From Paracoccaceae bacterium (GTDB lineage Bacteria; Pseudomonadota; Alphaproteobacteria; Rhodobacterales; Rhodobacteraceae): 47,365 nt of DNA. Both the position numbers and the translations under genes were made by a program. Shown piece by piece: positions 9,332-26,071 of this stretch. Positions within the stretch are counted from its first letter, which is position 1; the number at the start of each line of letters is the position of its first letter. The stretch is taken from positions 1 through 47,365 of the forward strand of contig PAQV01000044.1 of assembly GCA_002709405.1 (NCBI GenBank). Reading direction: 5' to 3'. Below the pieces are notes generated by a model, which ran no database searches, had not been told where the DNA came from, and saw only the letters and a list, made by a program, of their open reading frames with translations.

Positions 9332-9843
9332 CGGCATCCGATTCGACATGCGAGGGCATCGCGGCTTCGGCGGCGTTTGGCCTGTGGCTGGCGGAAAACG
9401 GCCGGTTCTTGTGACATCAGATTGCAGCGGTTTCCGTCGTATCGGGTCGGGCGGACAAGGCCCTAGGGCGCGCTCCTACGGATCCGGCGCGCCGCGGCCG
9501 GTGCCGGGGCGATAGCGGCCGGATCGGGTGGGGGCTGTCCAGGGTCGGAAGGTTTCGTTAATCTTTATTAATATGAGAGGCTTGGCGCGGCCAAACCCCC
9601 CTTGGGACCAGGTGCGGCGCCGGCCCTGGGTCCGGTCCCGGGAACCCGGGAAAACCCAGCCGGGCCAAGACGTTCGGACCCTTGCGTTTCAGCGCTCCCG
9701 AGCTGCGATCACGAGCGGATGTGTGCCGATCGGGCGATCACGAAAATTGGAGCGACGGAACCTTCCGATTGGTGCAATCGTTGGAAACTTAAGGCCTCGG
9801 ATTGTCCGGAGGCCGATTGTTTCGACTATGCATGACGAGGGCC
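9332..9843. other. Gene-free region after urtE with a strong imperfect hairpin
   Basis: No convincing gene in 512 bases. Two structures stand out. At 9558-9571 an AT-rich inverted repeat TTAAT-CTTT-ATTAA sits in otherwise GC-rich sequence and may be part of a promoter. At 9622-9666 there is a nested hairpin: CTGGGT (9626-9631), TCCCGGG (9636-9642), a 2-base centre, CCCGGGA (9645-9651) and ACCCAG (9654-9659), extended by GGCC/GGCC with a bulge. It has no U-tract, so it could be a Rho-dependent 3' end, a leader structure for the porin-like gene, or a small RNA. Confidence 0.5.
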
Positions 9844-10416
9844 ATGATGAAACGCGCACTTCTTTGTTCCGTTGCACTTCTAGCATCCACTTCCACCGCC
9901 GCCCTGGCCGGTGACTGGACCGGCTGGTACGCCGGTGGCCAGTTGGGCTATTCCTACGGCGAATTCGACCTGGATAGCGTCACCACTCCAGACAGCTTCG
10001 ACGCTGACGGCGTGATCGGCGGCTTCATGGGCGGCTATCTTCGCGACTACGGCGACTGGGTCATCGGCCTTGAACTGCAGTACGACTTCTCGGACATCAG
10101 CTTCAACGAGCCGACCGGCTCGGGCTCGTTCGACGGCATCGCCCGCCTGAAGACCCGCGCCGGCCGCGACTTTGGCAACTCGCTGGGCTTCATCAGCGTC
10201 GGCGTGGCCTACACCAACTTCGACGGCCTGGCCGGCGCGTCGGACATCGACTTCGACGATCCCGGCGTGGTCGCCGGCGTGGGCTATGAATACCAGGTCA
10301 ACGAGAACTGGGTCGTGGGTGGCGAATACATGTGGCACCAGTTCCTGGACTTCGGGGCTGACGGCAACGACGTGACCTTCAACACCCTGCACGTCCGGGC
10401 GTCCTACCGCTTCTGA
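9844..10416 (+). CDS. Small outer-membrane beta-barrel protein (porin-family)
   Basis: 190-residue protein with a signal peptide MMKRALLCSVALLASTSTAALA. The mature part starts GDWTGWYAGGQLGYSYGEF, the typical opening of small eight-stranded OMP_b-brl/Omp25-like barrels. Alternating strands follow, and the chain ends VRASYRF with the C-terminal Phe recognised by the BAM complex. Starts at 9844 and 9847 are adjacent ATGs after GACGAGG. The gene is monocistronic: a 427-base non-coding leader-side region precedes it and a hairpin follows the stop. Its role is unknown; members of this family act in envelope stability or as minor channels. It lies just before the polyketide cluster but is separated from it by 532 bases, so no link is implied. 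Confidence 0.85.
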   Translation: MMKRALLCSVALLASTSTAALAGDWTGWYAGGQLGYSYGEFDLDSVTTPDSFDADGVIGGFMGGYLRDYGDWVIGLELQYDFSDISFNEPTGSGSFDGIARLKTRAGRDFGNSLGFISVGVAYTNFDGLAGASDIDFDDPGVVAGVGYEYQVNENWVVGGEYMWHQFLDFGADGNDVTFNTLHVRASYRF

Positions 10417-10948: not shown

Positions 10949-13900
10949 ATGCTCGATTCATCGAACGTGAGTGCAAGTGATACTGCCTCGAAAAAAATTG
11001 CTGTAGTTGGGATTGCGTGCCGTCTGCCGGGTGGGGTTACCGGGCCGGACTCTTACTGGAAGCTTCTTGAAGAGAAGAAGTGCGGTATCCGCGAAGTTCC
11101 CTCGGATCGCTGGAACGTCGAACATTTCTACGACAGCGACCCCAATGCCCTGTCCCGCTCGCAGACCAAGTGGGCCGGTTTCCTTGATGACGTCAAAAGC
11201 TTCGACCCGTCGTTCTTCGGCCTGTCGCCGCGCGAAGCGACCTCGATGGACCCGCAGCAGCGCAACACGCTGATGTGCTCCTACGAGGCGATCGAAAACT
11301 CGGGTATCCCCTGGGAAGAATACCAGAAGGCCCGCACCGGCGTGTTCGTCGGCGTGCAGTCGGTCGACTACCGCGAAGTGCAGGAAAAGCGCCGCTCGGG
11401 CTTTGACGCCTTCGGTGGGACCGCGCTGGCCCACTGCATCATTTCCAACCGGGTGTCGCACCGCCTGAACCTGAATGGCCCGTCCTATTCCGTCGACACG
11501 GCCTGTTCGTCCTCGCTGACCGCGCTGAACCAGGCCATCCTGAACCTGCGCAACGACCAGGCCGATTACTGCCTGGTGACCGGCGTGAACTTCATGCTGG
11601 CGCCCTCGACCTTCGTGGCCTTCTCGAAGGCGGGCATGCTGTCGCCGACCGGCACCCTGCGCACCTTCGACGCCGACGCCAACGGCTTTGTCCGCGGCGA
11701 AGGCATCGGCACCGTGGTGCTGAAGCCCTATGACCGCGCGCTGGCCGACGGCGACCGCGTCTATGCCGTGATCGAGGAAAGCTGGGCCAACCAGGATGGC
11801 TTTACCTCGACCATCACCGCGCCGAACCAGACCAGCCAGATCAAGATGATGCAGTCGCTGATGGCGGGTGCGGGCGTTGGTCCGAACGAAATCGGCTACG
11901 TCGAAGCACACGGCACCGGCACGCCCATCGGCGACCCGATCGAAGCGGGCGCCATCGGCCGCGTGGTCGGCCAGCCCAAGACCAACGGCAAGCTGCTGAT
12001 CGGTTCGGTCAAGCCCAACATCGGCCACCTGGAATCGGGTGCCGGCGTTAACGGCCTGATCAAGCTGGCCCTGGCCATCCACAAGGGCAAGATCCCGGCC
12101 CAGATCGGTTTCGAAAAGCCCAACCCGCGGATCCCGCTGGACGCCCTGAACATGGAAGTCCCGCTGGACATGGTGGATTTCCCCGAGGTCGACGGCAAGC
12201 GCCGCGGCATCGTGAACTCGTTTGGCTTCGGTGGCGCGAACGCCTCCGCCCTGCTGGGCTCGGCCGAGAAGAAGGCCGTCGAGGGTGTCTGGCGCAAGCC
12301 GGTCGAGCTGCCGGCCGAAGACGCGCCGCGCATCTTCCCGATCTCGGCCCGGACCGAAGCCGTGGTCAAGGACGTGGCCGCCAAGCTGGCCGAAAGCCTG
12401 CGTGAGGGCAAACTGGCCGACACCGACGTCGCCGAAGTGGCCGCCGCGCTGGCCTCCAGCCGGACGCACCACGCCTATCGCGCGGCCATCGTGGCCAAGG
12501 ACAAGGACGAGCTGCTGAAGGGCCTCGACTTCGTCGCCGGTGCCGATGCCGACATGGAAGACCCGGGCAACGTCTACCGTGGCCAGGCCGCGGCCGACAA
12601 GAAGGTCGCCTTCATGTATGCGGGCCAGGGCTCGCAGTGGTGGGGCATGGCCCGCCAGCTGATGGAAGACAACGACGCGTTCCGCACTGCCGTGCAGGAA
12701 TACGACGCCGAATTCGTCAAGTCGGCCGGCTGGTCGATCATGGAAGAGCTGCTGAAGGACGAAGCCGACAGCAACATCGACGATACCACCGTCACCCAGC
12801 CCGCCCTGTTCGCGATCCAGCACGGCCTTGTCGCCGTCTGGAAATCCTGGGGCGTGGAACCCGACATGGTCGTCGGCCACTCGATCGGTGAAGCCTGCGC
12901 GGCCTACACCGCCGGCGGTCTGACCCTGGGCGGCGCGGCCAACTTCCTGTCCAAGCGTGGCGCTATCCGCGACCAGCTGGGCCAGAAGGGCGCAATGGCC
13001 GCCGTTGGCCTCGACCCCGAAGACATCGAGCCCCTGCTGCCCGAAAGCGGCCTGATCAACATCGCGGCCGTCAACGGCCCCGGCTCGACCACCATCTCGG
13101 GCGATTACGACACGCTGCACGCCTTCGTCGAACAATTCGAGAAGGACCACCCGAACACCTTCATCCGCATCCTCAAGGTCGATACCGCATGGCACTCGTA
13201 CCAGCTGGAAGCCGGTGAGGCCTGGTTCCGCAAGGAAGTGACCGAAATCGACTGGTCGGTGCCGACCACGCCGTGGATCTCGACCGTGACCGGCAAGCCG
13301 GAAACGCGCTTCGACATCGACTATGGCTGGCGGAACCTGCGCCAGGCGGTGCTGTTCAAGAACGGCATCGAAACCGCCCTGCGCATGGGGGCCAACGTCT
13401 TCCTGGAAATGGGCCCGCACACGACTCTGTCGTCGCCGGCCGTGTCCACCGCCGGTGATTTCGGCGCCAAGGTCGACGTCATCAACTCGCTGAACCGCAA
13501 GCAAAGCGACCACCTGTCGATGGCCCAGGCCACCGCGCGCCTGTTCTGCTCGGGCGTCAAGCTGGACTGGGAAGCCGTCAGCGGCGAACCCTCGGACCAC
13601 GTGGAACTGCCGGGCTATCCCTGGGCGCTGGAAACCCTGTGGATGGACAACAACGAATGGCGGGCGATGATGTTCCCCGAAAGCGTTGGCCCGCTTCTGG
13701 GTGTCCAGCTGGAAGGTGCAAAGAACCAGTGGGTTGGCGAGGTCTCGCTGAAGTCCCATGCCTGGATCGGTGACCACCGGCTGCAGTCGGAATGCGTGTT
13801 CCCCGGCGCGGGCTACATGGACATCATGTTCGAAGCCGGCCGCCGCATGTTCGGCGACGAGGGCTGCATCGAGATCGAGAACCTGACGATCCACGAAGCC

Positions 13901-16900
13901 CTGTTCATCCCGGCCGACACCGACGTGCGTTTCTTCACCATGTTCGTGCCGGAGCGGAACGCGATCCAGATCTACACCCAGCCGCGTGACAGCCAGGAAC
14001 CCTGGACCCTGCGCGCCGATGGCCAGATCCGCCAGAACATCGTTCCGCCGAAGACCGACTTCACGCCGATTGCCAAGGACGACGAGGGCTCGACCCTGGT
14101 CGAACTGACGACGCTGTACCAGGCGACGTCGGACGACAGCGTCATCAACTACGGCCCGGCCTTCCAGACCGTGCGCGACTTCTGGGTCCATGACCTGGGT
14201 GCCGGCGCCCTGGTCGGTGTGGATCCGATCTGCGAGCACAAGTTCGAAGACTTCGAAACCCACCCGTCGCTGCTGGACGCCTGCCTGCAGATCTCGGACC
14301 CGCGGATGACCGCCGCGTCCCTGCAGATGGACTACGACGAGCTGACCGGGAACTACGAAAGCTTCATGCCCGTTGGCGCGCTGCAACTGCGCCAGCACCG
14401 CAAGATGCCCAAGCAGTTCAAGGTCTACGCCTGGCAGAAGCCGCGGATCGACGCGCTGACGGGTTGCTCGGACTTCCTGGTCGTCGACCTGGACGGTAAC
14501 GTGGTGATGGAAGGCAACGGCCTGCTGAACCGCTCGCTGTCGGGCACGGCAACCCGCGAGCATCCCGAAGGCTTCGCGCCCCACTACGCGGTCGAGGAAT
14601 ACACCGACTACAAGGTGGCCACCCCCGAACCCGAAGCGGAATTCGGCACCTGGCTGGTGCTGGCCGATGAAGGCACCCCGGGCGAGAAGTTGGCGGAAGG
14701 CCTGGAGGCCCGTGGCGCAGAGGTCATCCTGATGACCCGCGAAGAAGTGGCCGACGAAGTCGAAGACATGCGCGAAGACTTTGCCGACCGCATCAGCGAG
14801 TTGATGGAAGACGAGGAGAAGGGCCTGGCCGGTGTGGTCTATGCCTGGAGCCTGTCGCAAGAGCCCATCACCGAGGACACGCCGGCCGACACCGTTGCCG
14901 AACTGGTGGCGAACGACAGCCGCGCGGTCATCGCGCTGGGATCGTCCTTCGACGAACTGCGCCATGGTGAGAACCTGCCGCGCGTCGTCCTGGTCACCCG
15001 CAACGGCCGCTCGGCCCCGGATGGCACCTCGATGAAGGTCGACGGCCTGACCCAGGCGCCGCTGGCAACCCTGCTGCGCACGGTGGCCAACGAGGTCAGC
15101 GAAATCGACATGCTGGAACTGGATGTCGACGAAGCCCAGCTGGAAGCGATGGATACCGTGCTGGACGCGATCCTCGCACCCGGTGCGGAAAACGAGATCG
15201 TCCTGCGCGAAGCCGGGGCCTACGTGCCGCGTCTGAACCGTGTCTGGGCGAACGAGCTGGATCCGCAGGACCTGTACATTCCGAAGGACAACACCGACCG
15301 GAACTTCTACGTCACGATGAACAACCCGGGGGTGATCGATAACCTCGAGCTGATCGAATGTGGCTTTGCTGAACTGGGGCCGGACGATGTCCGCGTCGCG
15401 GTCAAGGCAGTCGGTCTGAACTTCCGCGATGTCATGGCCGTCACCGGCCTGCTGCCGAAGGAAGCCGAAGGCGAACCCGCCTGGACCAACCTGGGCCTGG
15501 AATTCGGCGGTGTCATCGTCGAGAAGGGCTCGAACGTGACCGAGTTCGAAATCGGCGAGCGGGTCATGGGCATGGGCAAGCGCTGCCTGCAGCGCTACCT
15601 GAACACGTCCAAGCTGGCGCTGGCGCGGATCCCCGAGCACATCTCGTTCGAGGAAGCCTCGACCATCCCGTCGGCCTTCGCCACCGCGCATTACGCGCTG
15701 AACCGCATCGGTCGGATGGCCAAGGGTGAAAAGGTCTTCATCCACGTGGCAACCGGCGGTGTCGGCACGGCGGCCGTGCAGATGGCCAAGAACGTCGGCG
15801 CGGAAATCTTCGCGACGGCCGGCAGCGACGAGAAGCGCGCGCTTCTGAAAGAGTGGGGCGTCCCCCACATCATGAACTCGCGCGATCTGACCTGGGCAGA
15901 CGAAGTGAACCGGATCACGGGTGGCAAGGGCGTCGACGTCCTGCTGAACTCGCTGCCGGGCGCCTATATCGAGAAAGGTCTGGAGGCGATGGCCCCCTAT
16001 GGCCGCTACCTCGAGATCGGCAAGCGCGACGTCTACGCGGACAGCTCGATCGGCATGAAGGTCCTGCGCAAGAACATCTCGGTCTCGGTCCTCGACCTCG
16101 CCGCGATGGGCGTGGAACGGCCGGACCTGCTGGGCAGCATGTTCCAGGAGCTGACCGAAGCCTTCGTCCGCCGCGAGCTTGAACCGCTGCCGCTGGTGTC
16201 CTTCAAGGTCTCCGAGGTTGCCGACTCGATCCGCTTCATGTCCCAGGCCAAGCACGTCGGTAAGGTCGTCGTCACCTTCGACGAAGACGAATACGTCGTG
16301 AAGGCCGACCGGACCCGCGAAGTGAAGATGGAACCGGACGCGTCCTACCTGATCACCGGTGGTAACGGCGGCTTCGGCCTGTCGATCGCCCAGTGGATGA
16401 GCTCGGCCGGTGCCGGCAAGCTGATCCTGGCCTCCCGTTCGGGCAAGGTCGGTGAAGAGGAACTGCCGCGCATCGAAGCCATCAAGGAACAGGGCACCGA
16501 GGTCGAAATCATCTCGCTGGACATCACCAACGAAGATGAAACGGCCGAGGCCATCGCCAGGATGTTCGCCGATGCCAAGCCGCTGAAGGGTGTCATGCAC
16601 GCTGCCGCGGTCATCAAGGACGGCTTCATCAACCAGCTGACGGACGAGATGATCGACACGGTCATCTATCCGAAGGTGGCTGGCGGCTGGGCGCTGGAGA
16701 AGGCCTTTGCCAAGGCCGGACAACAGCCCGAGTTCATGATCTCGTTCTCGTCCATCGCGGCCACGACCGGCTCGCCCGGCCAGGCCAACTACGTGGCGGC
16801 CAACGGCTTCCTGGATGCGCTTGCGGCCTACCGCAAGAAGCACAAGGACGAAGGCGGGTCGATCAACTGGGGGGCCATCGCGGCCACCGGTATCGTCGGC

Positions 16901-18724
16901 CGGAACGAGGATCTGAAGAACTACCTGGAAAGCATGGGCCTGATGGGCCTGGAGGAAAACGAGACGCCGGAAGGCATCAAGACGATCCTGCGGACCAGCA
17001 AGCCGAACCTGTTCTACGCCAATGCCGACTGGCAGCAGATGGCACGGACCAACGCCAAGATGGCCGGAATTCCGCGCCTGGCGGGCATGCTCAAGAAGAA
17101 GGACGAGAAATCGTCGGAGGTGCGCGAGCGTCTTCTCAGCCTCGACTCGGCGGAACGCCACGAGGAACTGAAGGACTTCGTGAAGGGCGAGATCGGCAAC
17201 GTGCTGAAGATCGAACCCGAAACCATCGACCCGTCCATGGCGATGAACGAGCTTGGCCTCGACTCGCTGTCGTCCTTCGAACTGAAGATGCGCATTGAAA
17301 CCGCTCTGGGTCTGACCCTGCAGGCTGCCAAGTTCCTGCAGGCCCCGACGATCCTGGAACTGGTCGACGTGCTGGACGTGGAACTGGACAAGGCCAAGGC
17401 GGAAATGGAAGCCGCGGCCCTGGCTGGCGACGTGGACGACGAAGGCGACGCAGGTGGCGCAGCGGCGAGCGAAGAGCTGCTGCTGAGCGACCGCGGCACC
17501 TACCTGCTGGCCGAGGCAACGGCCCCGATGACGACCGACAGTGCCCGCGAGGCCCTGGAACATCGCATCGTGGTCGAGGTGGCTCCGGCCATCGACGCCG
17601 AAGCGCTGGCAAAGGCGGTGGAAACCGTGTCGGCCCGTCACCCGGTGCTGCGGACCAAGTACGCCGGTGGCAAGGTCAGCTTCGATGCCGAAGGTATCTC
17701 GCTGGTTGCGGCCGAAACGCTGGATCCGTTCCAGGTCAAACCGGTGGATGTCACCGAGGGCCACGTGGCCTGCCTGACCTGGGCCCCGGCAGGAGAGGAC
17801 GCAACCCGTCTGATGCTGCAGGTGCAAAGCGCGGTGGCAGACCGGGCCTCGGCCTACCTGGTGATGGACGAAGTCCTGAACCTGCTGGCCGGGACCGAGC
17901 TGGACGATCCGATGGCCGAAGAGGACCTGGGCGCCGAACTGCGCCGGGGCATCTTCGATCCGGAAGAATCGACCAACGCCAACGACCAGTCGTTCTGGAG
18001 CTACGCGGTGGCAGGCAAGGCGCCCGCCATCGAGTTCAAGGAGCGTTCGCGCGCTGTCTCGATCGCGGCCCTGGGTCGCGACCACGGGCTGGCCGCCGAA
18101 TGGCAGGGTGACATCCCGGGCAATGCCCTGAGCGAGGCCGATTTCACCATCGGTCTGGCCGAGGCGCTGACCGAGGCCTTCGATCACGAAGGTGGCGTCC
18201 TGCTGACCCGCGAAACCGACCGGCCCGCGCGGCTGGCCGAGGCCAAGGTGGTGGCACCGTTCGCCGATGATCAGCCGTTCTACGTGCCGATGAACATCGA
18301 CGAGACGATCCAGCGCGGCCATGTGGACCGGATCCTTGAAGCGGCCGAAGGGCACGACAGCATCGACCTGTACGTTCTGCGCAAAGAGCTGAACGACCAG
18401 TTCGAAGGCGCGGGTGCGGCTCCGTTCCAGATCTCGTACCGGTTCGATCCGGCGCTCAGCGCCCTCGAAGCGGCCCTGATCGCCGGACCGGTCAGCAAGG
18501 GCGGCATGACCGTCCATGCCGAGACCAACGGCCGGACGGGTATCGCCAGCGACGTGGAGCTCATCCTGCGCAAGTCGGATGATGCGACGCTGCTGGTGAT
18601 GCGGGTCGACAGCGACGTGGTGACTGCGAATGACGCCCAGCGTCTGATGCAGGCCCTGGCCAAGCGCTTGGGGATCACCACGATCACCTCGCCGTACGAG
18701 AACCAACTTGAGGTTGCGGAATGA
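10949..18724 (+). CDS. Reducing type I polyketide synthase with C-terminal condensation-like domain
   Basis: Single-module multienzyme of 2591 residues (numbering from the ATG at 10949, preceded by TAGGAAGA; an in-frame ATG at 10889 lacks a ribosome site). KS at about 15-430 has the DTACSSS cysteine C186 and H321/H360. AT at about 570-880 has GHSIGE with S645. DH at about 905-1195 has H943 and D1110, but the usual HxxxGxxxxP reads HRLQSECVFP, with Ser for Gly. A structural pseudo-KR fills about 1200-1440. ER at about 1450-1775 has GGVG at 1603; KR at about 1798-1980 has TGGNGGFG from 1803 and S1935/Y1948/N1952. ACP has DSL with S2106. After an acidic Ala/Gly linker comes a full-length condensation-like domain (about 2175-2580) in which HHxxxDG is replaced by QSAVADR (2293-2299). 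There is no methyltransferase or thioesterase. The order matches mycocerosic-acid-synthase-type PKSs. The stop overlaps the next gene (ATGA). Confidence 0.95.
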   Translation: MLDSSNVSASDTASKKIAVVGIACRLPGGVTGPDSYWKLLEEKKCGIREVPSDRWNVEHFYDSDPNALSRSQTKWAGFLDDVKSFDPSFFGLSPREATSMDPQQRNTLMCSYEAIENSGIPWEEYQKARTGVFVGVQSVDYREVQEKRRSGFDAFGGTALAHCIISNRVSHRLNLNGPSYSVDTACSSSLTALNQAILNLRNDQADYCLVTGVNFMLAPSTFVAFSKAGMLSPTGTLRTFDADANGFVRGEGIGTVVLKPYDRALADGDRVYAVIEESWANQDGFTSTITAPNQTSQIKMMQSLMAGAGVGPNEIGYVEAHGTGTPIGDPIEAGAIGRVVGQPKTNGKLLIGSVKPNIGHLESGAGVNGLIKLALAIHKGKIPAQIGFEKPNPRIPLDALNMEVPLDMVDFPEVDGKRRGIVNSFGFGGANASALLGSAEKKAVEGVWRKPVELPAEDAPRIFPISARTEAVVKDVAAKLAESLREGKLADTDVAEVAAALASSRTHHAYRAAIVAKDKDELLKGLDFVAGADADMEDPGNVYRGQAAADKKVAFMYAGQGSQWWGMARQLMEDNDAFRTAVQEYDAEFVKSAGWSIMEELLKDEADSNIDDTTVTQPALFAIQHGLVAVWKSWGVEPDMVVGHSIGEACAAYTAGGLTLGGAANFLSKRGAIRDQLGQKGAMAAVGLDPEDIEPLLPESGLINIAAVNGPGSTTISGDYDTLHAFVEQFEKDHPNTFIRILKVDTAWHSYQLEAGEAWFRKEVTEIDWSVPTTPWISTVTGKPETRFDIDYGWRNLRQAVLFKNGIETALRMGANVFLEMGPHTTLSSPAVSTAGDFGAKVDVINSLNRKQSDHLSMAQATARLFCSGVKLDWEAVSGEPSDHVELPGYPWALETLWMDNNEWRAMMFPESVGPLLGVQLEGAKNQWVGEVSLKSHAWIGDHRLQSECVFPGAGYMDIMFEAGRRMFGDEGCIEIENLTIHEALFIPADTDVRFFTMFVPERNAIQIYTQPRDSQEPWTLRADGQIRQNIVPPKTDFTPIAKDDEGSTLVELTTLYQATSDDSVINYGPAFQTVRDFWVHDLGAGALVGVDPICEHKFEDFETHPSLLDACLQISDPRMTAASLQMDYDELTGNYESFMPVGALQLRQHRKMPKQFKVYAWQKPRIDALTGCSDFLVVDLDGNVVMEGNGLLNRSLSGTATREHPEGFAPHYAVEEYTDYKVATPEPEAEFGTWLVLADEGTPGEKLAEGLEARGAEVILMTREEVADEVEDMREDFADRISELMEDEEKGLAGVVYAWSLSQEPITEDTPADTVAELVANDSRAVIALGSSFDELRHGENLPRVVLVTRNGRSAPDGTSMKVDGLTQAPLATLLRTVANEVSEIDMLELDVDEAQLEAMDTVLDAILAPGAENEIVLREAGAYVPRLNRVWANELDPQDLYIPKDNTDRNFYVTMNNPGVIDNLELIECGFAELGPDDVRVAVKAVGLNFRDVMAVTGLLPKEAEGEPAWTNLGLEFGGVIVEKGSNVTEFEIGERVMGMGKRCLQRYLNTSKLALARIPEHISFEEASTIPSAFATAHYALNRIGRMAKGEKVFIHVATGGVGTAAVQMAKNVGAEIFATAGSDEKRALLKEWGVPHIMNSRDLTWADEVNRITGGKGVDVLLNSLPGAYIEKGLEAMAPYGRYLEIGKRDVYADSSIGMKVLRKNISVSVLDLAAMGVERPDLLGSMFQELTEAFVRRELEPLPLVSFKVSEVADSIRFMSQAKHVGKVVVTFDEDEYVVKADRTREVKMEPDASYLITGGNGGFGLSIAQWMSSAGAGKLILASRSGKVGEEELPRIEAIKEQGTEVEIISLDITNEDETAEAIARMFADAKPLKGVMHAAAVIKDGFINQLTDEMIDTVIYPKVAGGWALEKAFAKAGQQPEFMISFSSIAATTGSPGQANYVAANGFLDALAAYRKKHKDEGGSINWGAIAATGIVGRNEDLKNYLESMGLMGLEENETPEGIKTILRTSKPNLFYANADWQQMARTNAKMAGIPRLAGMLKKKDEKSSEVRERLLSLDSAERHEELKDFVKGEIGNVLKIEPETIDPSMAMNELGLDSLSSFELKMRIETALGLTLQAAKFLQAPTILELVDVLDVELDKAKAEMEAAALAGDVDDEGDAGGAAASEELLLSDRGTYLLAEATAPMTTDSAREALEHRIVVEVAPAIDAEALAKAVETVSARHPVLRTKYAGGKVSFDAEGISLVAAETLDPFQVKPVDVTEGHVACLTWAPAGEDATRLMLQVQSAVADRASAYLVMDEVLNLLAGTELDDPMAEEDLGAELRRGIFDPEESTNANDQSFWSYAVAGKAPAIEFKERSRAVSIAALGRDHGLAAEWQGDIPGNALSEADFTIGLAEALTEAFDHEGGVLLTRETDRPARLAEAKVVAPFADDQPFYVPMNIDETIQRGHVDRILEAAEGHDSIDLYVLRKELNDQFEGAGAAPFQISYRFDPALSALEAALIAGPVSKGGMTVHAETNGRTGIASDVELILRKSDDATLLVMRVDSDVVTANDAQRLMQALAKRLGITTITSPYENQLEVAE

Positions 18725-20106
18725 TCCTGCGCAACAAGCGCCGGCAAGAAGAGGATACGGCAGCTGAACAGACATTTCCCCTGACGGAAATGCAGAAGTT
18801 CATGCTGCCGACCCTGACGGACCCGGACTGTGTCCTGCGGTTCAAGCAGTTCCTCTACCAGGTGCAGGGCCTCCGGATCAAACCGGGGGTCACCCCCCGC
18901 CGCATCGAACGTGGCCTCAAGAAACTGGCCAAACGACATGATGTTCTCCGGCTTGCGTTCCGCAAGTCGGAGGACACCGACGAATGGCGGGGCGTCTTCG
19001 TGCCCGTCGACGACATCAAGCTGACCGTCGAGGATTACGGCACGATGTCGCCTGAAGACCTGCGCGCCAAGGTGCGCGAGGTTGCCGAAGACACGATGGA
19101 AATCGACGACGAGATCCTCACGGATTTCCGGATGCTGCGCTTTGGCGAGGAAGGCGATGCCATCCTGTTCCGCCTGCACCACGCCCTGACCGACGCCTTC
19201 GGGATGATGGTCCTGGTCGAGGACCTGGTGAAGTTCATCATCAACATGCCGGGGACGGGCGAGGGTTATCCCTATGCCGATTTCGTCCAGAAGGTCGAAC
19301 AGAAGCTGCCCGACCACAAGGGAGAGGCAGGGGCCTACTGGGACGACATGCTGTTCCCGCCGCCCGCGCCAGTGAACTTCGGCCGCGTGGCCAAGGGCCT
19401 GTCGATGGAAACCGATCCTCACCTGATCGACAACATCCGCGACGCCAGCGTCACGATGCCGGTCGAGGATTACGAGACCATCACCGAGATCGCCCAGAAG
19501 GCCGGGGCCAGCATGTTCACGCTGACCGTGGCGGCCCTGAACGACACCATGCATGACATGTATGGCTCGGACGGGATCATCGGCCGGTCGGTGATGGGCC
19601 GGAATGCCGGGGACCTGTCGAACTTCATCGGGTTTGCACTGCGCTTCCCGCTGTGGCGGGTCGACATGTCCGACGGGGATACCCTGATCGAACGGGCCAA
19701 GACGCTGCGCAAGCAGATGCAGACGTCGATGACCACGATCACCAAGGAACTTGGCCGGCCCGTCAACAAGATCGACGAACGGCTGCGGGCGGAAACCGGC
19801 GGGATCGGGGTGCAGTTCTTCGTTCACGTGCCGTCGGCGGATGCCAAGGCCAAGTCGTCCATGCTGGCCGGGATCTTCCGGTCCCAGGGCGACGTGATGA
19901 TGAAGGTCGGCCCGGTCGAGGTCGAGCGCATCGCATTGCCCCGGCCTCCGGCCATGGGCGCCCCGAACGACCTGACCGTCCTGGTCCTGCCGTTCGACGA
20001 CGGGGCACAGGTGACGGTCCGTTGTGACGGGACCGTTTTCGACGACGATGAATTGCAAGACATCGCAAACCAGCTGATGGGCAAACTACTCAGCGTAAAA
20101 GGCTAA
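18721..20106 (+). CDS. Free-standing condensation-domain (PapA-like) acyltransferase
   Basis: 461-residue protein of the condensation/acyltransferase superfamily, overlapping the PKS stop by 4 bases and therefore probably made in step with it. FPLTEMQ opens the fold and KRHDVLRLAFR is the first conserved helix. The active-site motif reads HHALTDAF (residues 153-160), keeping both histidines and the Asp, with Ala in place of the usual final Gly. GRNAGDLSNFIGFALRFPL matches the latch region of condensation domains. In the family the second His promotes attack of an amine or alcohol on a thioester. With no thioesterase present, this protein is the best candidate to release the ACP-bound chain by ester or amide formation, as PapA proteins do in mycobacteria. 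The acceptor is unknown. Confidence 0.85.
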   Translation: MILRNKRRQEEDTAAEQTFPLTEMQKFMLPTLTDPDCVLRFKQFLYQVQGLRIKPGVTPRRIERGLKKLAKRHDVLRLAFRKSEDTDEWRGVFVPVDDIKLTVEDYGTMSPEDLRAKVREVAEDTMEIDDEILTDFRMLRFGEEGDAILFRLHHALTDAFGMMVLVEDLVKFIINMPGTGEGYPYADFVQKVEQKLPDHKGEAGAYWDDMLFPPPAPVNFGRVAKGLSMETDPHLIDNIRDASVTMPVEDYETITEIAQKAGASMFTLTVAALNDTMHDMYGSDGIIGRSVMGRNAGDLSNFIGFALRFPLWRVDMSDGDTLIERAKTLRKQMQTSMTTITKELGRPVNKIDERLRAETGGIGVQFFVHVPSADAKAKSSMLAGIFRSQGDVMMKVGPVEVERIALPRPPAMGAPNDLTVLVLPFDDGAQVTVRCDGTVFDDDELQDIANQLMGKLLSVKG

Positions 20107-20259
20107 AGGACTTGGCGGCGCTCTGGCGCCGCTGTCATTTCTGAGACATGAATTGTTGATATCGCCCGAAGTGTTCCATCCGCATTGTCGCGGACTTCGG
20201 TGCGAACGAAGGAATGTTCGACAGGCCATTTGACACAAGCCGGGAACTGGAGACTACGC
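20107..20259 (+). promoter_or_regulatory. Structured gap: terminator-like hairpin plus inverted repeats upstream of the sulfotransferase
   Basis: GCGGCGC-TCTG-GCGCCGC (20115-20132) is a perfect 7-bp hairpin directly after the condensation gene. It is followed by TGTCATTT, a weak terminator signal. Further on, CCGAAGT (20166-20172) and ACTTCGG (20194-20200) form a long-loop repeat, and CGAAC (20203-20207) with GTTCG (20216-20220) a second. This could be a partial terminator followed by a second promoter or a folded leader for the sulfotransferase-to-transporter genes. Confidence 0.45.
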
Positions 20260-21546
20260 ATGACGACCGACGCACGCACCGAGGCAACCGAAGATCCCAC
20301 CAAGATCTACGACCAGGACGACCCCCGCTATTACGGCTACACGCGCTTTCAGTTCCGCCTGTGGCACGGGATGACGACCTGGGCCTTCATCAAGATGATC
20401 AACGGGCGCTTCAAGTATATCTCGCCCCAGCGCTATGGCCTGTTTGCCTCTGTCATCCTGGTGTCGCTGCTGCACAACTTCCTGGCCGTGTGCGTCAAGA
20501 TCTTCTACACCGGCCGCATCAAGCGCACCGAATTCGCCGGAGACCCGGTCTGCATCATCGGCTTTCAGCGCTCGGGCACGACTTTCCTGAACGAGCTGAT
20601 CGCCTGCGATGACCGGTTCGCCTATCCCGACAACCTGCAATGCATCATGCCGGAAACCTTCATCCTGGCCGAACGGCGCCTGCGCCGGTCCAATTCCATC
20701 ATGAAGATGGAAAAGCGGCCCATGGACGATATGGACATGAGCATGGACGCCCCGCAGGAAGACGAAATCGCCCTGCTGAACTCGGGCGTGCCCAGCCCCT
20801 ATTCGCAGATCGCCTTCCCCTCGGCCGGTGAATTCTATCACGAGGCCCTGCAGGAACAGCAATCCGACCCCGAGATGCGCCGCAAGTGGGTCGAGGCCTG
20901 GGTCTGGTTCCTGCGCAAGGTCCAGTTCCGCAACAAGGGCAAGCGCCTGCTGCTGAAATCGCCGACGCATACCGTGCGGGTGTCGCTGATCCGCGAGACC
21001 TTCCCCGCGGCCAAGTTCATCCACATCACGCGCAACCCCTACCGGATCTTCCATTCGAACCTGAAGCTGGGCAAGGCGCTGTCGGTGACCCAGGGCTTTG
21101 AAGCCAAGGGCATGACCGACGAGGCCATGATCGAGGAACTGATCGAAGGGTTCCCGGTGTTCCACGAGGCCTACGAGGAACAGAAGGTCGACGTGCCCGA
21201 GGGCAACCTGGTGACGGTGGCCTACGAAGACCTGGTCAAGGACCCGATTGCGGTGATCCGTCGCATCTACAGCGAGCTCGGTTTGCCCGACATCGAACAT
21301 GCGATCCCGGCCATGCAGGCCTACGTGGATTCGCGCAAGGGCTACACGCCCAACAAGTACAAGGAAGACCCCGAGATCGTGAAAATGATCAACGACAATT
21401 GGGGCATTTATTTTGACGCTTACGGATACGATCGTCTTCCCGTGGAGGGAGAGGAAGCGCCTGTGAACGAAGCCATCGTCACCGCCGATGGCGAGGCGCC
21501 GGGAACACCCGAAGACGAGCAGGCCGACAAACAGACGGGTACCTAA
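20260..21546 (+). CDS. PAPS-dependent sulfotransferase family protein, membrane-associated
   Basis: 428-residue sulfotransferase (Sulfotransfer_3-like) expected to move a sulfo group from PAPS to a hydroxyl or amine. The ATG at 20260 has GGAG seven bases upstream; a longer start at 20185 is unsupported. The 5'-phosphosulfate loop is IIGFQRSGTTFLNEL with R104-S105-G106-T107-T108. The 3'-phosphate motif is HITRNPYRIFHSN with R258 and S266, and both are intact. LLLKSPTHTVRV adds a further family motif. Residues 59-82 (YGLFASVILVSLLHNFLAVCVKIF, in part) are strongly hydrophobic, suggesting membrane association and so a lipid-like substrate. The acidic C-terminal tail of about 30 residues is probably disordered. 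Its place between acyltransferase and exporter genes suggests it tailors the polyketide product. Confidence 0.88.
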   Translation: MTTDARTEATEDPTKIYDQDDPRYYGYTRFQFRLWHGMTTWAFIKMINGRFKYISPQRYGLFASVILVSLLHNFLAVCVKIFYTGRIKRTEFAGDPVCIIGFQRSGTTFLNELIACDDRFAYPDNLQCIMPETFILAERRLRRSNSIMKMEKRPMDDMDMSMDAPQEDEIALLNSGVPSPYSQIAFPSAGEFYHEALQEQQSDPEMRRKWVEAWVWFLRKVQFRNKGKRLLLKSPTHTVRVSLIRETFPAAKFIHITRNPYRIFHSNLKLGKALSVTQGFEAKGMTDEAMIEELIEGFPVFHEAYEEQKVDVPEGNLVTVAYEDLVKDPIAVIRRIYSELGLPDIEHAIPAMQAYVDSRKGYTPNKYKEDPEIVKMINDNWGIYFDAYGYDRLPVEGEEAPVNEAIVTADGEAPGTPEDEQADKQTGT

Positions 21547-21554
21547 CGCCTCTC

Positions 21555-23873
21555 ATGGCTACCAACGACCTTCATGCCGAAGGTCAGCAATACACAGGCG
21601 CGCGGATTGCCCGCGCGCTGGTGCGCTGGCATTGGCTATTCTTCGCATTGGCGATCGTGCTCATCGCCATCGGAGCCGCAGGGATCTTCAAGGTCGAACG
21701 TTCGACCAACACCCGGGCCTTCTTCGGACCCGAGAATCCCGAATACAAACTGCTTCTTCAGATCGAGGACATGTTCGTCTCGTCCGACAACATGATCCTG
21801 GCGATTTCCGGGCCGGAGGGGTCGGATTTCGAACCCGAAACCCTGGAAGCGGTGCGCGAACTGACGAACGAGGCCTGGTACGTGCCGCACGTGCTGCGGG
21901 TCGACTCGCTGGCCAGCTTCAACCACTCCTGGGCCGAGGGCGACGAGATCATCGTCGAACCCATCCTGCCGGAAGAGGGCGAGATCACGCCCGAGATCGC
22001 CAAACTGGCGCGCGAACGGACGTTTTCGTCGGAAGAGCTGGTGAACCGGGTGGTGTCGCCTGACGGGCGGACCTTCGGCGTCGCGATTTCGATGATCCCG
22101 CCGGACCGGTCGAACGAAACCTTCCGCGAGATCATGGCCTCTGTTCAGGACCTGGCCGACCGGATCGAAGCAGACTACCCGGGCCACGAGGTCTACATGA
22201 CCGGCACCGTGATGGCGAGCCTGGCCTTTTCCAGCGCCGCCGGCCGTGACCTGAACGAAACCCTGCCTCTGGCCGCCGCGTCGACGGTTGTGCTGCTGAT
22301 CCTCGGGCTGGGCACCTTCTCGGGGGTCGTGGGGTCAGTCGTCGTGCTGCTGGGCGGCGCGGCCGTCACGCTGGGGGCGGGCGGCTGGATGGGCATGGCC
22401 CTGACGCCGGGCAACGCGCCCAGCCCGCTGGCCGTCATCGTCATCGTTGCGGCAACCTGCATGCACCTGGTCCTGCACTGGCGCAACGCACTTGGCGACG
22501 GGATGAGCAACCGCGACGCCGTCGAACACTCGGTCGAGGAAAACCTGGCCCCGATCACCGTGACCAACCTGACCACGGCCTTCGGGTTCGCCTGCCTGAA
22601 TTTCTCGGACGCCCCGCCACTGCGCGACCTGGGCAACATGATCGCCGCCGGTACGCTGGTGGGCTGGCTGCTGTCGATCATGGTGATTCCGACCGCCCTG
22701 CTGGTGCTGCCCGCCATGCGCCGCCGGCGCGAGGGCCTTCTGCCGCGCATCCTGCGCCGGGTCGGAGACGTCACACTGCGCCACCGTTACGCCGTGCTGG
22801 GCCTCTTTGCCGTGGCCACGCTGGTGTCGGTCTTCGGCATCTTCCGGATCTACTTCAACGACGATTTCATCCGTTATTTCGACCACACCTACCAGCTGCG
22901 CCGCGACAGCGACGTGATCGAGGACCGGCTGACCTCGCTGAAGGTCGTGACCTTCGTGCTGGAAAGCGACGATGAAAGCGGCGTGTTCGACCCGGACTTC
23001 CTGCACGAGGTCGAAGAGTTCGAGGCCTGGCTGGCCACGCGCGACGACGTCAAACAGGTGTCGTCGATCACCCAGCCGCTGAAACGCCTGAACATGAACC
23101 TCAACGGCGACGATCCCGCGTTCTACCGCACGGCCGACAGTTCCGAGGCCAACGCCCAGTTGATGATGCTGTACGAACTGAACCTGCCGGTCGGCCAGGA
23201 TCTGAACACGCAGCTGAGCATCGACCGCAAACAGACCCTGATGTCGGTGTCGCTGAACGTCGAAAGCAGCGCCGAACTGCGCTGGTTCACCGCCGATGCC
23301 GAAGAATGGATGCGCGAGAACACGCCCGAGATCGCCACCCTGGGCACCGGGGCCTCGATCACGTTTGCGCGCGTATCCCAGCGAAACGGCACGGCGATGT
23401 TCACAGGGGCCGTGGTGGTGCTAATCGTGATCTCGGCGACGATGATCATCGCGTTGCGGTCCTGGCGCTACGGCCTGCTGAGCCTGATCCCCAACCTTGT
23501 CCCGGCTGTCATGGCCTTCGGGATCTGGGGGGTCGTCTTCGGAGAGGTCAACCTGGGCTCGACCGTGGTGACCGTGATGACATTCGGCATCGTCGTCGAT
23601 GATACGGTGCACATGATGATGACCTATATCCGTCAGCGCAGGCTGGGGTTCGAACCGAAAGAAGCGGTGCGGCGTATGCTGGCCAATGTCGGCACGGCCA
23701 TCGCGCTGACCTCGATCACCCTGGTCGCGGGGTTTTCCATCATCGCGATGTCGAGCTTTGCCATCAATGAACACCTTGGGGCGCTGACCGCGCTTGTCGT
23801 GGCCTGTGCCTTCCTGGCCGACCTTATCCTCTTGCCAGTGCTTCTGGTTACAGCCGAAGGAAAGAGAACATGA
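21555..23873 (+). CDS. RND/MMPL-family lipid or hydrophobe exporter
   Basis: 772-residue inner-membrane transporter with the two-fold RND/MMPL plan: helix 1 at about 26-48, a periplasmic domain, five helices, then the same again. The second half carries FGIVVDDTVHMMMTY, with the acidic pair used as proton relay. The equivalent place in the first half reads VIVAATCMHLVLHW and has no acid. At 772 residues it is shorter than AcrB-type pumps and matches the MMPL/HpnN size class that moves lipids to the periplasm. It begins 8 bases after the sulfotransferase stop with little ribosome site. Its own stop overlaps the LolA-like gene (ATGA), a pairing commonly seen for this RND subgroup. Confidence 0.9.
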   Translation: MATNDLHAEGQQYTGARIARALVRWHWLFFALAIVLIAIGAAGIFKVERSTNTRAFFGPENPEYKLLLQIEDMFVSSDNMILAISGPEGSDFEPETLEAVRELTNEAWYVPHVLRVDSLASFNHSWAEGDEIIVEPILPEEGEITPEIAKLARERTFSSEELVNRVVSPDGRTFGVAISMIPPDRSNETFREIMASVQDLADRIEADYPGHEVYMTGTVMASLAFSSAAGRDLNETLPLAAASTVVLLILGLGTFSGVVGSVVVLLGGAAVTLGAGGWMGMALTPGNAPSPLAVIVIVAATCMHLVLHWRNALGDGMSNRDAVEHSVEENLAPITVTNLTTAFGFACLNFSDAPPLRDLGNMIAAGTLVGWLLSIMVIPTALLVLPAMRRRREGLLPRILRRVGDVTLRHRYAVLGLFAVATLVSVFGIFRIYFNDDFIRYFDHTYQLRRDSDVIEDRLTSLKVVTFVLESDDESGVFDPDFLHEVEEFEAWLATRDDVKQVSSITQPLKRLNMNLNGDDPAFYRTADSSEANAQLMMLYELNLPVGQDLNTQLSIDRKQTLMSVSLNVESSAELRWFTADAEEWMRENTPEIATLGTGASITFARVSQRNGTAMFTGAVVVLIVISATMIIALRSWRYGLLSLIPNLVPAVMAFGIWGVVFGEVNLGSTVVTVMTFGIVVDDTVHMMMTYIRQRRLGFEPKEAVRRMLANVGTAIALTSITLVAGFSIIAMSSFAINEHLGALTALVVACAFLADLILLPVLLVTAEGKRT

Positions 23874-24664
23874 CCTTTCTCAAACGCATTCCCCTGATCC
23901 TATTGCTGGCCGCCACGCCGGCCCTGCCGGCGCTGTCGCAGACCGCCGAGCAGAAGGGCGAACAGATCGCCACCCAGGCCCAGTCCAAGGGCAAGGGCTT
24001 TGGCGACAGCCTGTCGTCGGGGCAGATGATCCTTTACACCAAGGGTGGATCGCAAAGCGAACGGCGGTTCAACGCCAAGTCGCTGGAAGGGCAGGGCAAC
24101 AACCCGTCCGCCTCGCTTCTTGTCTTCGAATGGCCGGGCGATGTGCGCGATACGGCCCTGCTGACCTATTCCTACGACAACAAGTCGGACGACCAGTGGC
24201 TGTACCTGCCGTCGGTGGGCCGGGTGAAGCGGATTTCGTCCTCGGCCCGGTCCGGGGCCTTCATGGGATCCGAATTCGCCTATGAGGACATGACCGACCA
24301 GGGTGCGTCGGAATTCAATCACAAATGGGTCGAAGACAGCGCCTGCCCGGTGGGCGGGGGCACCTGCCACGTGGTCGACCGGACTCCGAAAAGCCGGTCG
24401 GGCTATGCCCTGCAGCGGGTCTGGTTCAACAAGTCGAACCTGTACGTCGTCCAGATCCAGTATTTTGACCGGGCCGGCAAGCATGTGAAGACGCTGCAAA
24501 GCTCGGGCCAGAAGAAGTACCAGGGCAAGTACTGGCGCCCGGCCAAGATGCGCATGGTCAACCACCTGACCGGCAAGAGCACCGATCTGCTGTGGTCGGG
24601 CTACAAGTTCGGCAACGGGTTCTCGGCCAACGATTTCAGCGTTCAGGCCCTGAAATCGCGGTAA
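23870..24664 (+). CDS. LolA-like outer membrane lipoprotein-sorting protein
   Basis: 264-residue periplasmic protein with a signal peptide MTFLKRIPLILLLAATPALPALS. The mature domain has DDQWLYLPSVGRVKRISSS and GSEFAYEDMTD, which I recognise from the LolA_like/outer-membrane-lipoprotein-sorting family found next to MMPL-type RND pumps. The fold is a half-barrel that shields a lipid chain, so the likely job is to accept the exported lipid at the inner membrane and pass it across the periplasm. It overlaps the RND gene by 4 bases, and a strong terminator follows it. It is about 60 residues longer than classical LolA and is not the housekeeping LolA. Confidence 0.88.
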   Translation: MTFLKRIPLILLLAATPALPALSQTAEQKGEQIATQAQSKGKGFGDSLSSGQMILYTKGGSQSERRFNAKSLEGQGNNPSASLLVFEWPGDVRDTALLTYSYDNKSDDQWLYLPSVGRVKRISSSARSGAFMGSEFAYEDMTDQGASEFNHKWVEDSACPVGGGTCHVVDRTPKSRSGYALQRVWFNKSNLYVVQIQYFDRAGKHVKTLQSSGQKKYQGKYWRPAKMRMVNHLTGKSTDLLWSGYKFGNGFSANDFSVQALKSR

Positions 24665-24674
24665 ACGACCGGAT

Positions 24675-24699
24675 CCGGGCGGCAGGCCGCCCGGGTTTT
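24675..24699 (+). terminator. Rho-independent terminator after the LolA-like gene
   Basis: CCGGGCGG (24675-24682), a 4-base loop and CCGCCCGG (24687-24694) followed by GTTTT. It is a compact 8-bp GC stem with a short U-tract. It may end the main transcript or reduce expression of the barrel gene that follows. Confidence 0.75.
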
Positions 24700-24772
24700 G
24701 CCTTGCCTGACTCACCAGGGTCGGGCAGGGCAAAGGGCAAGTAACGCGCCCGGCCGGGCGGAAACTGGAAAG

Positions 24773-26071
24773 ATGACCATGCAGACGACACGGAGGACGA
24801 AAGCGGCGCTGACGGCAGGGGCCCTGGCGGCCGGTCTGTTGTCCCTGACAGGTGCGGCTCGGGCCCAAGACCTGGACTTTACCTTCGGCGGTTCCCTGGA
24901 AGCCACGCTGCGCTATTACCCCCAGGACGGATTGTTGCCGGGGCAGACGGACGCCGGCTTTGCGCCGATCCTCAGCGGCGAGCTGAACACCCGCACCCGG
25001 TTCGAAAACGGCACCTTGGTCTTCGAGGTCTCGGGGCTGTACAACACCGAAACCGGCGAAGGCTATGCCGACATCCCGCGGGGTTATTACCAGTATTTCG
25101 GCGATGGCTGGGACGTGCTGCTGGGGTCCAACATCGAATACTGGGGCGTGAGCGAGGGCAACAGGGTCGTCGACACGGTGAACCAGCGCTACACGATCGA
25201 CCAGACGGTGGATTACATCAGCCTTGGCCAGCCGATGGTGAACCTGAACCTGTCGACGGGCATGAACAGCACGCTCAGCCTGTTCGGACTGATCTATTTC
25301 CGCGACCGCGAGATGAACTCGGCCCAGACCCGGTTCCGTTCGCCCATCCTGATGAGCAATTCCGACGCGGTCTACGAAGAGGGCGAGGGGCGCAACCTGG
25401 ATTTCGCGGCGCGTTACCGGACGTCGTTCAATGCGCTTTGGGGGGGGATGGACCTGGCGGTGTCCTATTTCGACGGGACCAACCGGGCGCCGTCGACCCT
25501 GCCCAACCTGTGCGTGACGCCGGGCGGGGAGTATGACGCCGCCAATTGCCTGGCGCTGGTCGAGGCCAATCCCGACGCGTTGAAGGGCATACCCTATTAC
25601 GCCAAGCTGCGGCGCTATGGGCTGGAACTGGTCTATTCGAACGGCGACGTGCAGGTGACCTTCGAGGGGGCGATCAGCGCATCCCTGAACGAGACCTATT
25701 ATTCGGCTGTGGGCGGGGCGCAGTATTCGATCGGCGGTCTTGGCCCGACCGGGGACACCCTGACGCTTGTGGCCGAGTACCTGTATGACGACCGGTCGAA
25801 CATCCAGCCCCTGACGATCTACGACGACGATGTGTTCCTGGGCTTTGCCTATTCGGGCAACGACGTGGCGGGGACCAGCGTGCGGGGCGGGATGTATTAC
25901 GACGTGAACACCGATGCGCAGATCTACACGGCCTCGTATTCGCGGCGGCTGGGGGATGCGATGCGGCTGGAAGTGGCCGGGTTCGGGGTGAACGCGGCCG
26001 GCACCGGTGACGCTCTGGCCTTTGCGCAGGACGACAGCTTCGTGCAGGTCTCGCTGGAATATTTCTTCTGA
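24773..26071 (+). CDS. Outer-membrane beta-barrel protein of the export cluster
   Basis: 432-residue protein. The ATG at 24773 follows CTGGAAAG and opens a signal peptide of about 33 residues ending in TGAARAQ. The mature chain begins DLDFTFGGSLEATLRYYPQ and is rich in alternating aromatic/polar strands (for example YADIPRGYYQYFGDGWDVLLG). It ends VSLEYFF with a terminal Phe, all signs of a monomeric outer-membrane barrel of roughly 16 strands. It resembles the DUF1302/alginate-export-like barrels that neighbour RND plus LolA-like pairs, but I cannot assign a family firmly. Two cysteines in LCVTPGGEYDAANCL could form a loop disulfide. As last gene of the cluster it probably forms the outer-membrane stage of export. 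Confidence 0.8.
   Translation: MTMQTTRRTKAALTAGALAAGLLSLTGAARAQDLDFTFGGSLEATLRYYPQDGLLPGQTDAGFAPILSGELNTRTRFENGTLVFEVSGLYNTETGEGYADIPRGYYQYFGDGWDVLLGSNIEYWGVSEGNRVVDTVNQRYTIDQTVDYISLGQPMVNLNLSTGMNSTLSLFGLIYFRDREMNSAQTRFRSPILMSNSDAVYEEGEGRNLDFAARYRTSFNALWGGMDLAVSYFDGTNRAPSTLPNLCVTPGGEYDAANCLALVEANPDALKGIPYYAKLRRYGLELVYSNGDVQVTFEGAISASLNETYYSAVGGAQYSIGGLGPTGDTLTLVAEYLYDDRSNIQPLTIYDDDVFLGFAYSGNDVAGTSVRGGMYYDVNTDAQIYTASYSRRLGDAMRLEVAGFGVNAAGTGDALAFAQDDSFVQVSLEYFF

Follow-up and report, generated by a model that had tools for sequence, protein, structure and literature searches.

Do six adjacent genes of a Paracoccaceae bacterium make up one line for the synthesis, sulfation and export of a polyketide? 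The genes are plus-strand reading frames at positions 10949 to 26071 of a 47,365-nucleotide stretch (PAQV01000044.1 of assembly GCA_002709405.1), here referred to as the window, which is one contig of a 5.39-Mb host genome. They code, in order, for a polyketide synthase (PKS), a free condensation protein, a sulfotransferase, a resistance-nodulation-division (RND) transporter, a LolA-like protein and an outer-membrane-type barrel. An initial annotation of the bare sequence had listed these six genes with their domains, together with ATGA overlaps at 18721 (PKS and free condensation protein) and 23870 (RND and LolA-like protein), and had proposed a Gram-negative counterpart of mycobacterial lipid systems. 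Reading frames and profile searches agree with the list, and both overlaps are present in the sequence. We propose that the six genes probably form a single biosynthesis-and-export line for a sulfated polyketide conjugate. The parts, the catalytic residues kept or lost, the conserved linkage, and the fusions of PKS with condensation domains and of RND with LolA in relatives can be read directly; the reactions, the acceptor, where the sulfate goes and which way transport runs are what we infer from them.

To follow the gene set, an alignment of the sulfotransferase and two peptide patterns were used to scan a collection of 84,980 species, and the best 80 of the 344 relatives, many of them on short contigs, were examined. 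The full order was present in 6 of these 80 loci, whose titles name Rhodobacteraceae, Roseicyclus, Oceanicola or Pseudooceanicola; one locus (L045) is truncated within the PKS. No full set was found in the remaining 74 loci, and none outside Rhodobacteraceae, an absence that the many short contigs leave unproven. Within the genus of the window, all three genomes carry the cluster between ABC transporter genes and a kinase gene, with about 2.8 kb extra behind the barrel in G408. The same six genes in the same order thus occupy nine Rhodobacteraceae loci, three in the genus of the window (its own included) and six elsewhere. The initial annotation had suggested a check for co-occurrence in Rhodobacterales; outside the genus, the set co-occurs at 21 to 52% identity. 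Over ungapped columns, these identities to the window were 45 to 47% for the PKS, 21 to 25% for the free condensation protein, 33 to 36% for the sulfotransferase, 42 to 44% for the MMPL-type transporter, 44 to 52% for the LolA-like protein and 34 to 35% for the barrel. Pairwise identities of the six genes co-varied (Spearman 0.65 to 0.92; 28 non-independent pairs from 8 loci). Three comparisons within the genus gave ratios of nonsynonymous to synonymous substitution rates (dN/dS) of 0.12 to 0.33 for every gene but that of the free condensation protein, for which the pair of the window and G407 gave 0.20. Collectively, these comparisons support the view that the six genes are one inherited unit.

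The distribution of the cluster is sporadic. A sulfotransferase match (E value of 0.001) was found in 14 of 149 genomes of the family, but just two of them, the window genome and G064, reached E values below 1e-80. A PKS search of 292 genomes of the order, in which the two best candidates per genome were scored, gave matches at 1e-200 in three. One of the three is G317, whose PKS lacks the fused C-terminal domain described below and has no other cluster gene in the 18 kb read. In three Sulfitobacter plasmid records, a PKS match covered 98% of the query, and two of these records were read. They carry a PKS with the same fused domain, MMPL, LolA, a galE-type gene instead of the sulfotransferase, and the barrel; upstream are genes for a Mur-ligase-like protein and two free condensation proteins. 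In Sulfitobacter sp. DSM 110093, plasmids NZ_CP085168.1 and NZ_CP085169.1 each carry a full-length PKS relative of equal score, the second of which was the one read. Beside the Sulfitobacter cluster (L034, 7237-10299), a gene codes for a protein of 1021 residues, whose C-terminal part is of the Mur-ligase type and whose first 670 residues or so are unassigned. A Gloeothece plasmid with a PKS and a sulfotransferase was set aside as a different pathway; it gave no MMPL or LolA match, and its PKS match stops at about residue 2223. No description of the cluster was found in the literature searched, whose scope left out most subscription journals and preprints.

The PKS matched the Pfam profiles of the ketosynthase (KS; 285.8 bits), acyltransferase (AT; 211 bits), ketoreductase (KR; 192.4 bits) and acyl carrier protein (ACP; 51.3 bits), as well as those of the dehydratase (DH) and enoylreductase (ER), and its closest solved structure was mycocerosic acid synthase (930 bits over residues 36-2166). 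Its catalytic residues are intact in all nine rows compared (the eight six-gene loci with a full PKS, and Sulfitobacter), among which some glycines of the DH and KR motifs differ. On domain order and residues, it is a highly reducing type I synthase of the KS-AT-DH-ER-KR-ACP type. Evidence on the extender unit is conflicting: the GHSIGE motif of the AT presumably suggests malonyl, whereas its TAWHS motif is atypical, and modular ATs carrying GHSQGE are its best matches in the PDB. The open frame begins at 10889; the start is likely to be 10949, because the G407 frame begins only there (residue 20 of the longer reading) and relatives conserve no residues ahead of it.

Behind the ACP, PKS residues 2190-2611 gave no match in Pfam. 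A profile built from seven homologues of this segment, here referred to as C*, aligned with the free condensation proteins over 358 columns at 96% probability and 13% identity. The AlphaFold model of C* was poor (mean predicted local distance difference test score, pLDDT, 58.3; predicted template modeling score 0.43), and its best Foldseek matches belonged to the condensation family and included glycopeptide X-domains, the MokA condensation domain and the domain that releases the enacyloxin chain, with TM-scores of only 0.3 to 0.4 for this low-confidence model. By profile comparison and predicted fold, C* is a condensation-fold domain, in line with the fused condensation-like domain of the initial annotation. 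HHxxxD, which we take to be the catalytic motif of condensation domains, is lost in all 11 C* copies (nine alignment rows plus L045 and G498, the last two judged by eye); at the HH position, the window genus has Gln-Ser and the other copies have His and another residue. Despite this loss, C* is under purifying selection (dN/dS of 0.16 and 0.21). Because the catalytic pair was lost and yet selection persists, C* may have a docking or positioning role.

The free condensation protein, by contrast, retains HHxxxD in 11 of 11 copies, the second Sulfitobacter copy included. It matched the Pfam Condensation family with 94.3 bits, and all its 15 PDB matches at an E value of 0.01 were of the condensation type, none of them named PapA in this search by sequence only. 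One was 6cgo (phmmer E value of 1.5e-4), by its title the chain-release condensation domain of enacyloxin. Among 385 genomes of the class searched with the C* profile, eight gave matches at 1e-6 or better. Besides the window, only G498, of another alphaproteobacterial family, was strong (E value of 2.8e-41); the six weaker matches were partial, spanning about 100 to 145 model positions inside large frames. In G498, a single frame of 3127 residues joins a PKS, C* (126 bits) and a condensation domain (201 bits) that matches the free protein and keeps its motif as HHLFID. The gene after this fusion had a sub-threshold match to phosphopantetheinyl transferase (PPTase; E value of 0.0028, 18.1 bits against a cut-off of 25). 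The 39 kb read at this locus gave no match to the cluster profiles of the sulfotransferase, MMPL, LolA or barrel, and RND relatives are located elsewhere in that genome. The cluster resembles LovB and MokA in that a condensation domain follows the ACP of the synthase (available part of PMC7870829; title of 6ad3), and enacyloxin in having a condensation domain proposed to release the chain (title of 6cgo). It differs from these systems in pairing a dead with an active condensation domain, which are fused in G498.

The sulfotransferase matched Sulfotransfer_3 with 107.6 bits and also Sulfotransfer_1, and the motifs binding 3′-phosphoadenosine 5′-phosphosulfate (PAPS), already noted as intact in the initial annotation, are intact in all nine cluster copies. 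Its PDB matches were weak: two without a named function (E values of 1.6e-6 and 2.9e-4), followed by the PKS-type sulfotransferase structures 4gox (0.0024) and CurM 4gbm (0.08). The host genome contains a paralogue of 50% identity on contig C69 (L026, 8217-12383), with a same-strand gene of the flavin-dependent (FAD) oxidoreductase type on one side and a NAD_binding_4 gene, of the fatty-acyl-reductase type, on the other; siderophore-type ABC uptake genes adjoin this region. The C69 locus is perhaps a separate pathway to a sulfated fatty alcohol or lipid, and, because of the fatty-acyl-reductase-type neighbour, a lipid alcohol substrate is hinted at. In a tree of 88 rows, whose bootstrap had not settled, the window-genus sulfotransferases formed one group with the paralogue on C69 (98/97), and a second group (99/96) comprised the remaining six copies from the cluster. 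The tree gave no supported relation between the two groups, so that a single origin is neither established nor ruled out. On balance, we lean towards a sulfated cluster product.

Of the export proteins, the RND transporter matched Pfam MMPL with 97.6 bits; its best NCBIfam model was HAE3 (154.9 bits, below the cut-off of 351.9), and it reached 100 bits against a cut-off of 874.7 with the MmpL model TIGR00833. The LolA-like protein matched LolA_like (178.1 bits) and DUF1329 (34.6 bits, cut-off 23.1). The barrel gave no Pfam match at an E value of 0.01, DUF1302 included, and no PDB sequence match at an E value of 1. Its low-confidence model (pLDDT 59) consists mainly of antiparallel strands, with fold matches to porins and AlgE; a related barrel in L146 matches DUF1302 and scores 181 bits with the profile of the window barrel. 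A search that scored four candidates in each of 244 genomes of the order found close RND relatives (E value of 1e-60) in three: the window, G151, which carries the cluster, and G263, in which an RND-LolA pair has no PKS match in the 30 kb read. In G054 and G008, a single frame codes for both proteins. Such RND-LolA fusions were located at L150 9712-12954 and L151 8944-12270; the latter has a hydrophobic stretch between its parts that could be an extra membrane span. TOL_3187 is a published RND-LolA fusion, 42-fold upregulated on C28 alkane (PMC6304351, used here, like the other papers cited, in the part available). The mycobacterial RND exporter MmpL7 is reported to bind the PKS PpsE (PMC1238737).

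In the proposed line, the PKS would be primed and activated by enzymes encoded elsewhere and would make a largely reduced chain on its ACP. As the initial annotation had remarked, the locus brings no coenzyme A (CoA) ligase, thioesterase or PPTase of its own; none was found in the 35 window frames scanned with Pfam (of 131 frames of at least 100 amino acids). Elsewhere, the host genome has two PPTase-family loci and one adenosine 5′-phosphosulfate kinase. C* would perform no chemistry and would dock or position partners, and the free condensation protein would move the chain from the ACP onto a hydroxyl or amine of the acceptor. No thioesterase would be needed, because this protein would release the chain. 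The sulfotransferase would use PAPS to sulfate a hydroxyl of either the chain or the acceptor, and the result would be an amphiphile. The RND transporter would extract the product from the inner membrane, the LolA-like protein would shield it across the periplasm, and the barrel would deliver it to the outer membrane or outside the cell.

Two mycobacterial lines come closest in logic. Sulfolipid-1 (SL-1) uses Stf0, PapA1/PapA2, Pks2 and MmpL8, and phthiocerol dimycocerosate (PDIM) uses MAS, PapA5, MmpL7 and LppX. The window shares with them a reducing PKS, a condensation-fold acyltransferase, an RND exporter and, in addition, a sulfotransferase or a LolA-fold carrier. The families differ, however. 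The window sulfotransferase matched only Sulfotransfer_3 and Sulfotransfer_1 and not Stf0 (Pfam, E values up to 0.01), the PKS reached 1160 bits with the Pks2 model NF041183 against a cut-off of 2400, the acyltransferase belongs to the nonribosomal-peptide-synthetase-type condensation family rather than to PapA, and the RND transporter stays below the MmpL cut-off, with HAE3 scoring higher. The fused dead condensation domain, the Gram-negative envelope and the barrel are further differences. Model cut-offs and the PDB sequence search led us to reject membership in the SL-1 or PDIM families, and the resemblance is one of analogy. Of the counterpart proposed by the initial annotation, what stands is the gene content, which suits a reduced polyketide conjugate that is made, sulfated and exported; homology does not stand.

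Gram-negative systems resemble the export genes and bear on where the product goes. AmeABCD of Castellaniella combines an HAE3-type RND protein, a LolA/DUF1329-type periplasmic protein and an outer-membrane protein of the DUF1302 kind; its deletion reduces monoterpene tolerance (PMC6394551). In the window, too, the genes of the RND and the LolA/DUF1329 proteins are adjacent, but there is no AmeC-like second periplasmic protein among the six, the trio here is linked to a PKS, and the barrel itself lacks the DUF1302 match that its L146 relative has. ApeL-ApeM-ApeN likewise place an RND and a LolA-like protein in a Gram-negative lipid-polyketide cluster, whereas the aryl polyene is made by many separate enzymes with a thioesterase and acyltransferases, a LolB-like protein stands in place of the barrel, and the gene table lists no sulfotransferase (PMC8253772). 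It is quite possible, if on the whole doubtful, that the product is a diffusible secreted amphiphile (a surfactant, signal or antibiotic) and not an outer-membrane lipid. The barrel could be an exit channel, the scattered distribution and the plasmid location in Sulfitobacter suit an accessory compound, and release into the environment has been proposed for AmeABCD (PMC6394551); the aryl polyene RND and LolA-like proteins, however, are proposed to bring lipid to the outer membrane (PMC8253772).

The order of the reactions could also be reversed, although we consider this rather unlikely: the sulfotransferase would act first, on a small soluble acceptor such as a sugar or polyol, which the condensation protein would then acylate, leaving the sulfate on the headgroup. 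In SL-1, the sulfate sits on the trehalose headgroup, as trehalose sulfate. The cluster contents leave the reaction order unfixed, and in the 74 further loci, from Planctomycetota, Bacteroidota and other groups, the sulfotransferase relative lies outside such a cluster. Among these 74, many of them short contigs, a PKS-profile match was found in five (294 bits in L051 and 97 to 108 bits in four), a condensation match in one (L083) and an MMPL match in three. Against sulfation of a soluble headgroup, the C69 paralogue adjoins the fatty-acyl-reductase-type gene, the six genes include none for making a sugar, and the galE-type gene of Sulfitobacter replaces the sulfotransferase.

Several observations weigh against a single line for a sulfated conjugate. 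The cluster is known from genes alone, with no known product, and the models of C* and the barrel are poor (pLDDT 58 and 59). The two Sulfitobacter plasmid regions read gave no sulfotransferase match; because they retain the core of the cluster, sulfation would be optional to such pathways. As the window-genus sulfotransferases group with the C69 paralogue and the other six stand apart, the cluster sulfotransferase may have been exchanged. The free condensation protein of G408 is only about 40% identical to that of the window, with dN/dS of 0.64 and 0.62 at high synonymous divergence. The G408 PKS (L124, 10545-19672) is 85% identical to that of the window, with 70% in the DH and 80 to 95% in the other regions; the divergence of its free condensation protein and DH suggests changed products on a constant frame. 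The initial annotation had also counted a transporter trio found mostly without the PKS as evidence against its proposal, and this was observed in part. Relatives of the LolA-like protein (E value of 1e-15 or better) occurred in 11 of 149 family genomes, two of which carry the cluster, and at least six of the 11 had no PKS match in the roughly 20 kb read; two more were covered for only 1.5 kb on each side and one ends at a contig edge. All six loci without a PKS matched the barrel and four of them matched MMPL. The transport module is found without a PKS, and its presence therefore indicates hydrophobic cargo and not the specific cargo. We read it as a general exporter of hydrophobic cargo that was recruited by the cluster.

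That the trio is an unrelated hydrocarbon or lipid transporter merely adjoining the PKS is very improbable, since such relatives without a nearby PKS in other family genomes are set against a trio that follows the PKS in all nine six-gene loci and in both Sulfitobacter regions that lack the sulfotransferase. Equally improbable, and rejected as the leading explanation for want of a thioesterase, is a CurM-like route in which the sulfotransferase would activate a beta-hydroxyl for loss of sulfate and CO2 to give a terminal alkene, the reaction described for CurM (curacin) and HlaB (haliamide) (PMC5577590): 4gox and 4gbm are among the weak PDB matches, but this chemistry pairs the sulfotransferase with a thioesterase, absent from the PKS and the 35 scanned window frames, the window enzyme is free-standing, and the condensation protein better explains release.

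A synthesis-and-export line for a sulfated conjugate remains our preferred reading. A more specific version of it, which we put forward tentatively and hold to be somewhat doubtful, is a Gram-negative sulfated-lipopolyketide line with the dead C* as a docking platform, an exchangeable head-group step and a constant export module, of an origin separate from the mycobacterial sulfolipid logic. The head-group step would vary, with a sulfotransferase in most clusters, other enzymes in Sulfitobacter, and a diverged free condensation protein and DH in G408.

Table 1. Coordinates of the cluster genes and domains in the window, and of the PKS-C*-C fusion in G498
Feature	Position	Strand	Evidence
Highly reducing type I PKS, KS-AT-DH-ER-KR-ACP + C-terminal condensation-like domain	10949..18724	+	Pfam/NCBIfam profiles; PDB sequence search
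KS domain, Cys-His-His kept	10991..12112	+	Pfam and residue alignment
AT domain, GHSIGE and unusual TAWHS motif	12611..13558	+	Pfam and residue alignment
DH domain, His and Asp kept	13691..14551	+	Pfam and residue alignment
ER domain, nucleotide-binding motif kept	15377..16273	+	Pfam and residue alignment
KR domain, Ser-Tyr-Asn kept	16340..16882	+	Pfam and residue alignment
ACP, DSL serine present	17177..17371	+	Pfam and residue alignment
C*, fused condensation-fold domain without catalytic HH pair	17456..18721	+	Profile comparison, predicted model, fold search
Free condensation protein, HHxxxD intact, proposed chain-releasing acyltransferase	18721..20106	+	Pfam, PDB sequence search, alignment
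PAPS-dependent sulfotransferase, Sulfotransfer_3 family; frame from 20185, ATG at 20260 likely	20260..21546	+	Pfam and motifs
RND transporter, HAE3/MMPL type	21555..23873	+	Pfam and NCBIfam
LolA-like carrier, N-terminus resembles signal peptide (by eye)	23870..24664	+	Pfam
Outer-membrane-type beta-barrel, N-terminus resembles signal peptide (by eye); frame from 24698	24773..26071	+	Predicted model and fold match
G498 PKS-C*-C fusion	G498:C16, L163 11897 to L164 1376		

Upstream, the PKS is flanked by branched-chain/urea-type ABC transporter genes and a small OmpA-like barrel gene, and downstream the barrel is followed by a 2-keto-3-deoxy-galactonokinase gene. A PF13505 small outer-membrane-protein gene lies upstream of the PKS both in the window (9802-10416, plus strand) and in G151 (L037 5418-6401, minus strand), on opposite strands. 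No conserved genes beyond the six were noticed in a non-exhaustive survey of the flanks listed for six loci and a few scanned flanking genes. Three cluster proteins compared with PADLOC for a role in defence gave no match. Further away in the window, an accD-type carboxyltransferase gene (43051-43995, minus strand) adjoins a Mur-ligase-type, folC-like gene (41789-43054, minus strand); this pair is probably housekeeping, though relevant to the supply of malonyl-CoA.

Judged by its sequences, the cluster is real and conserved as a gene set, and its general function is well supported. New here are the dead C* in 11 of 11 copies, under purifying selection beside an active free condensation protein, and the PKS-C*-C fusion of G498. 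If the proposal is true, Rhodobacteraceae would have a sulfated envelope or secreted lipid of which the literature searched contained no report. The six genes would provide a genetic handle on it, in carriers such as Pseudooceanicola antarcticus and with Sulfitobacter dubius (DSM 109990) as a natural variant lacking the sulfotransferase in the region read. They would also offer a system for studying how RND transporters hand lipids over to LolA-like proteins and what dead condensation domains do behind a PKS.

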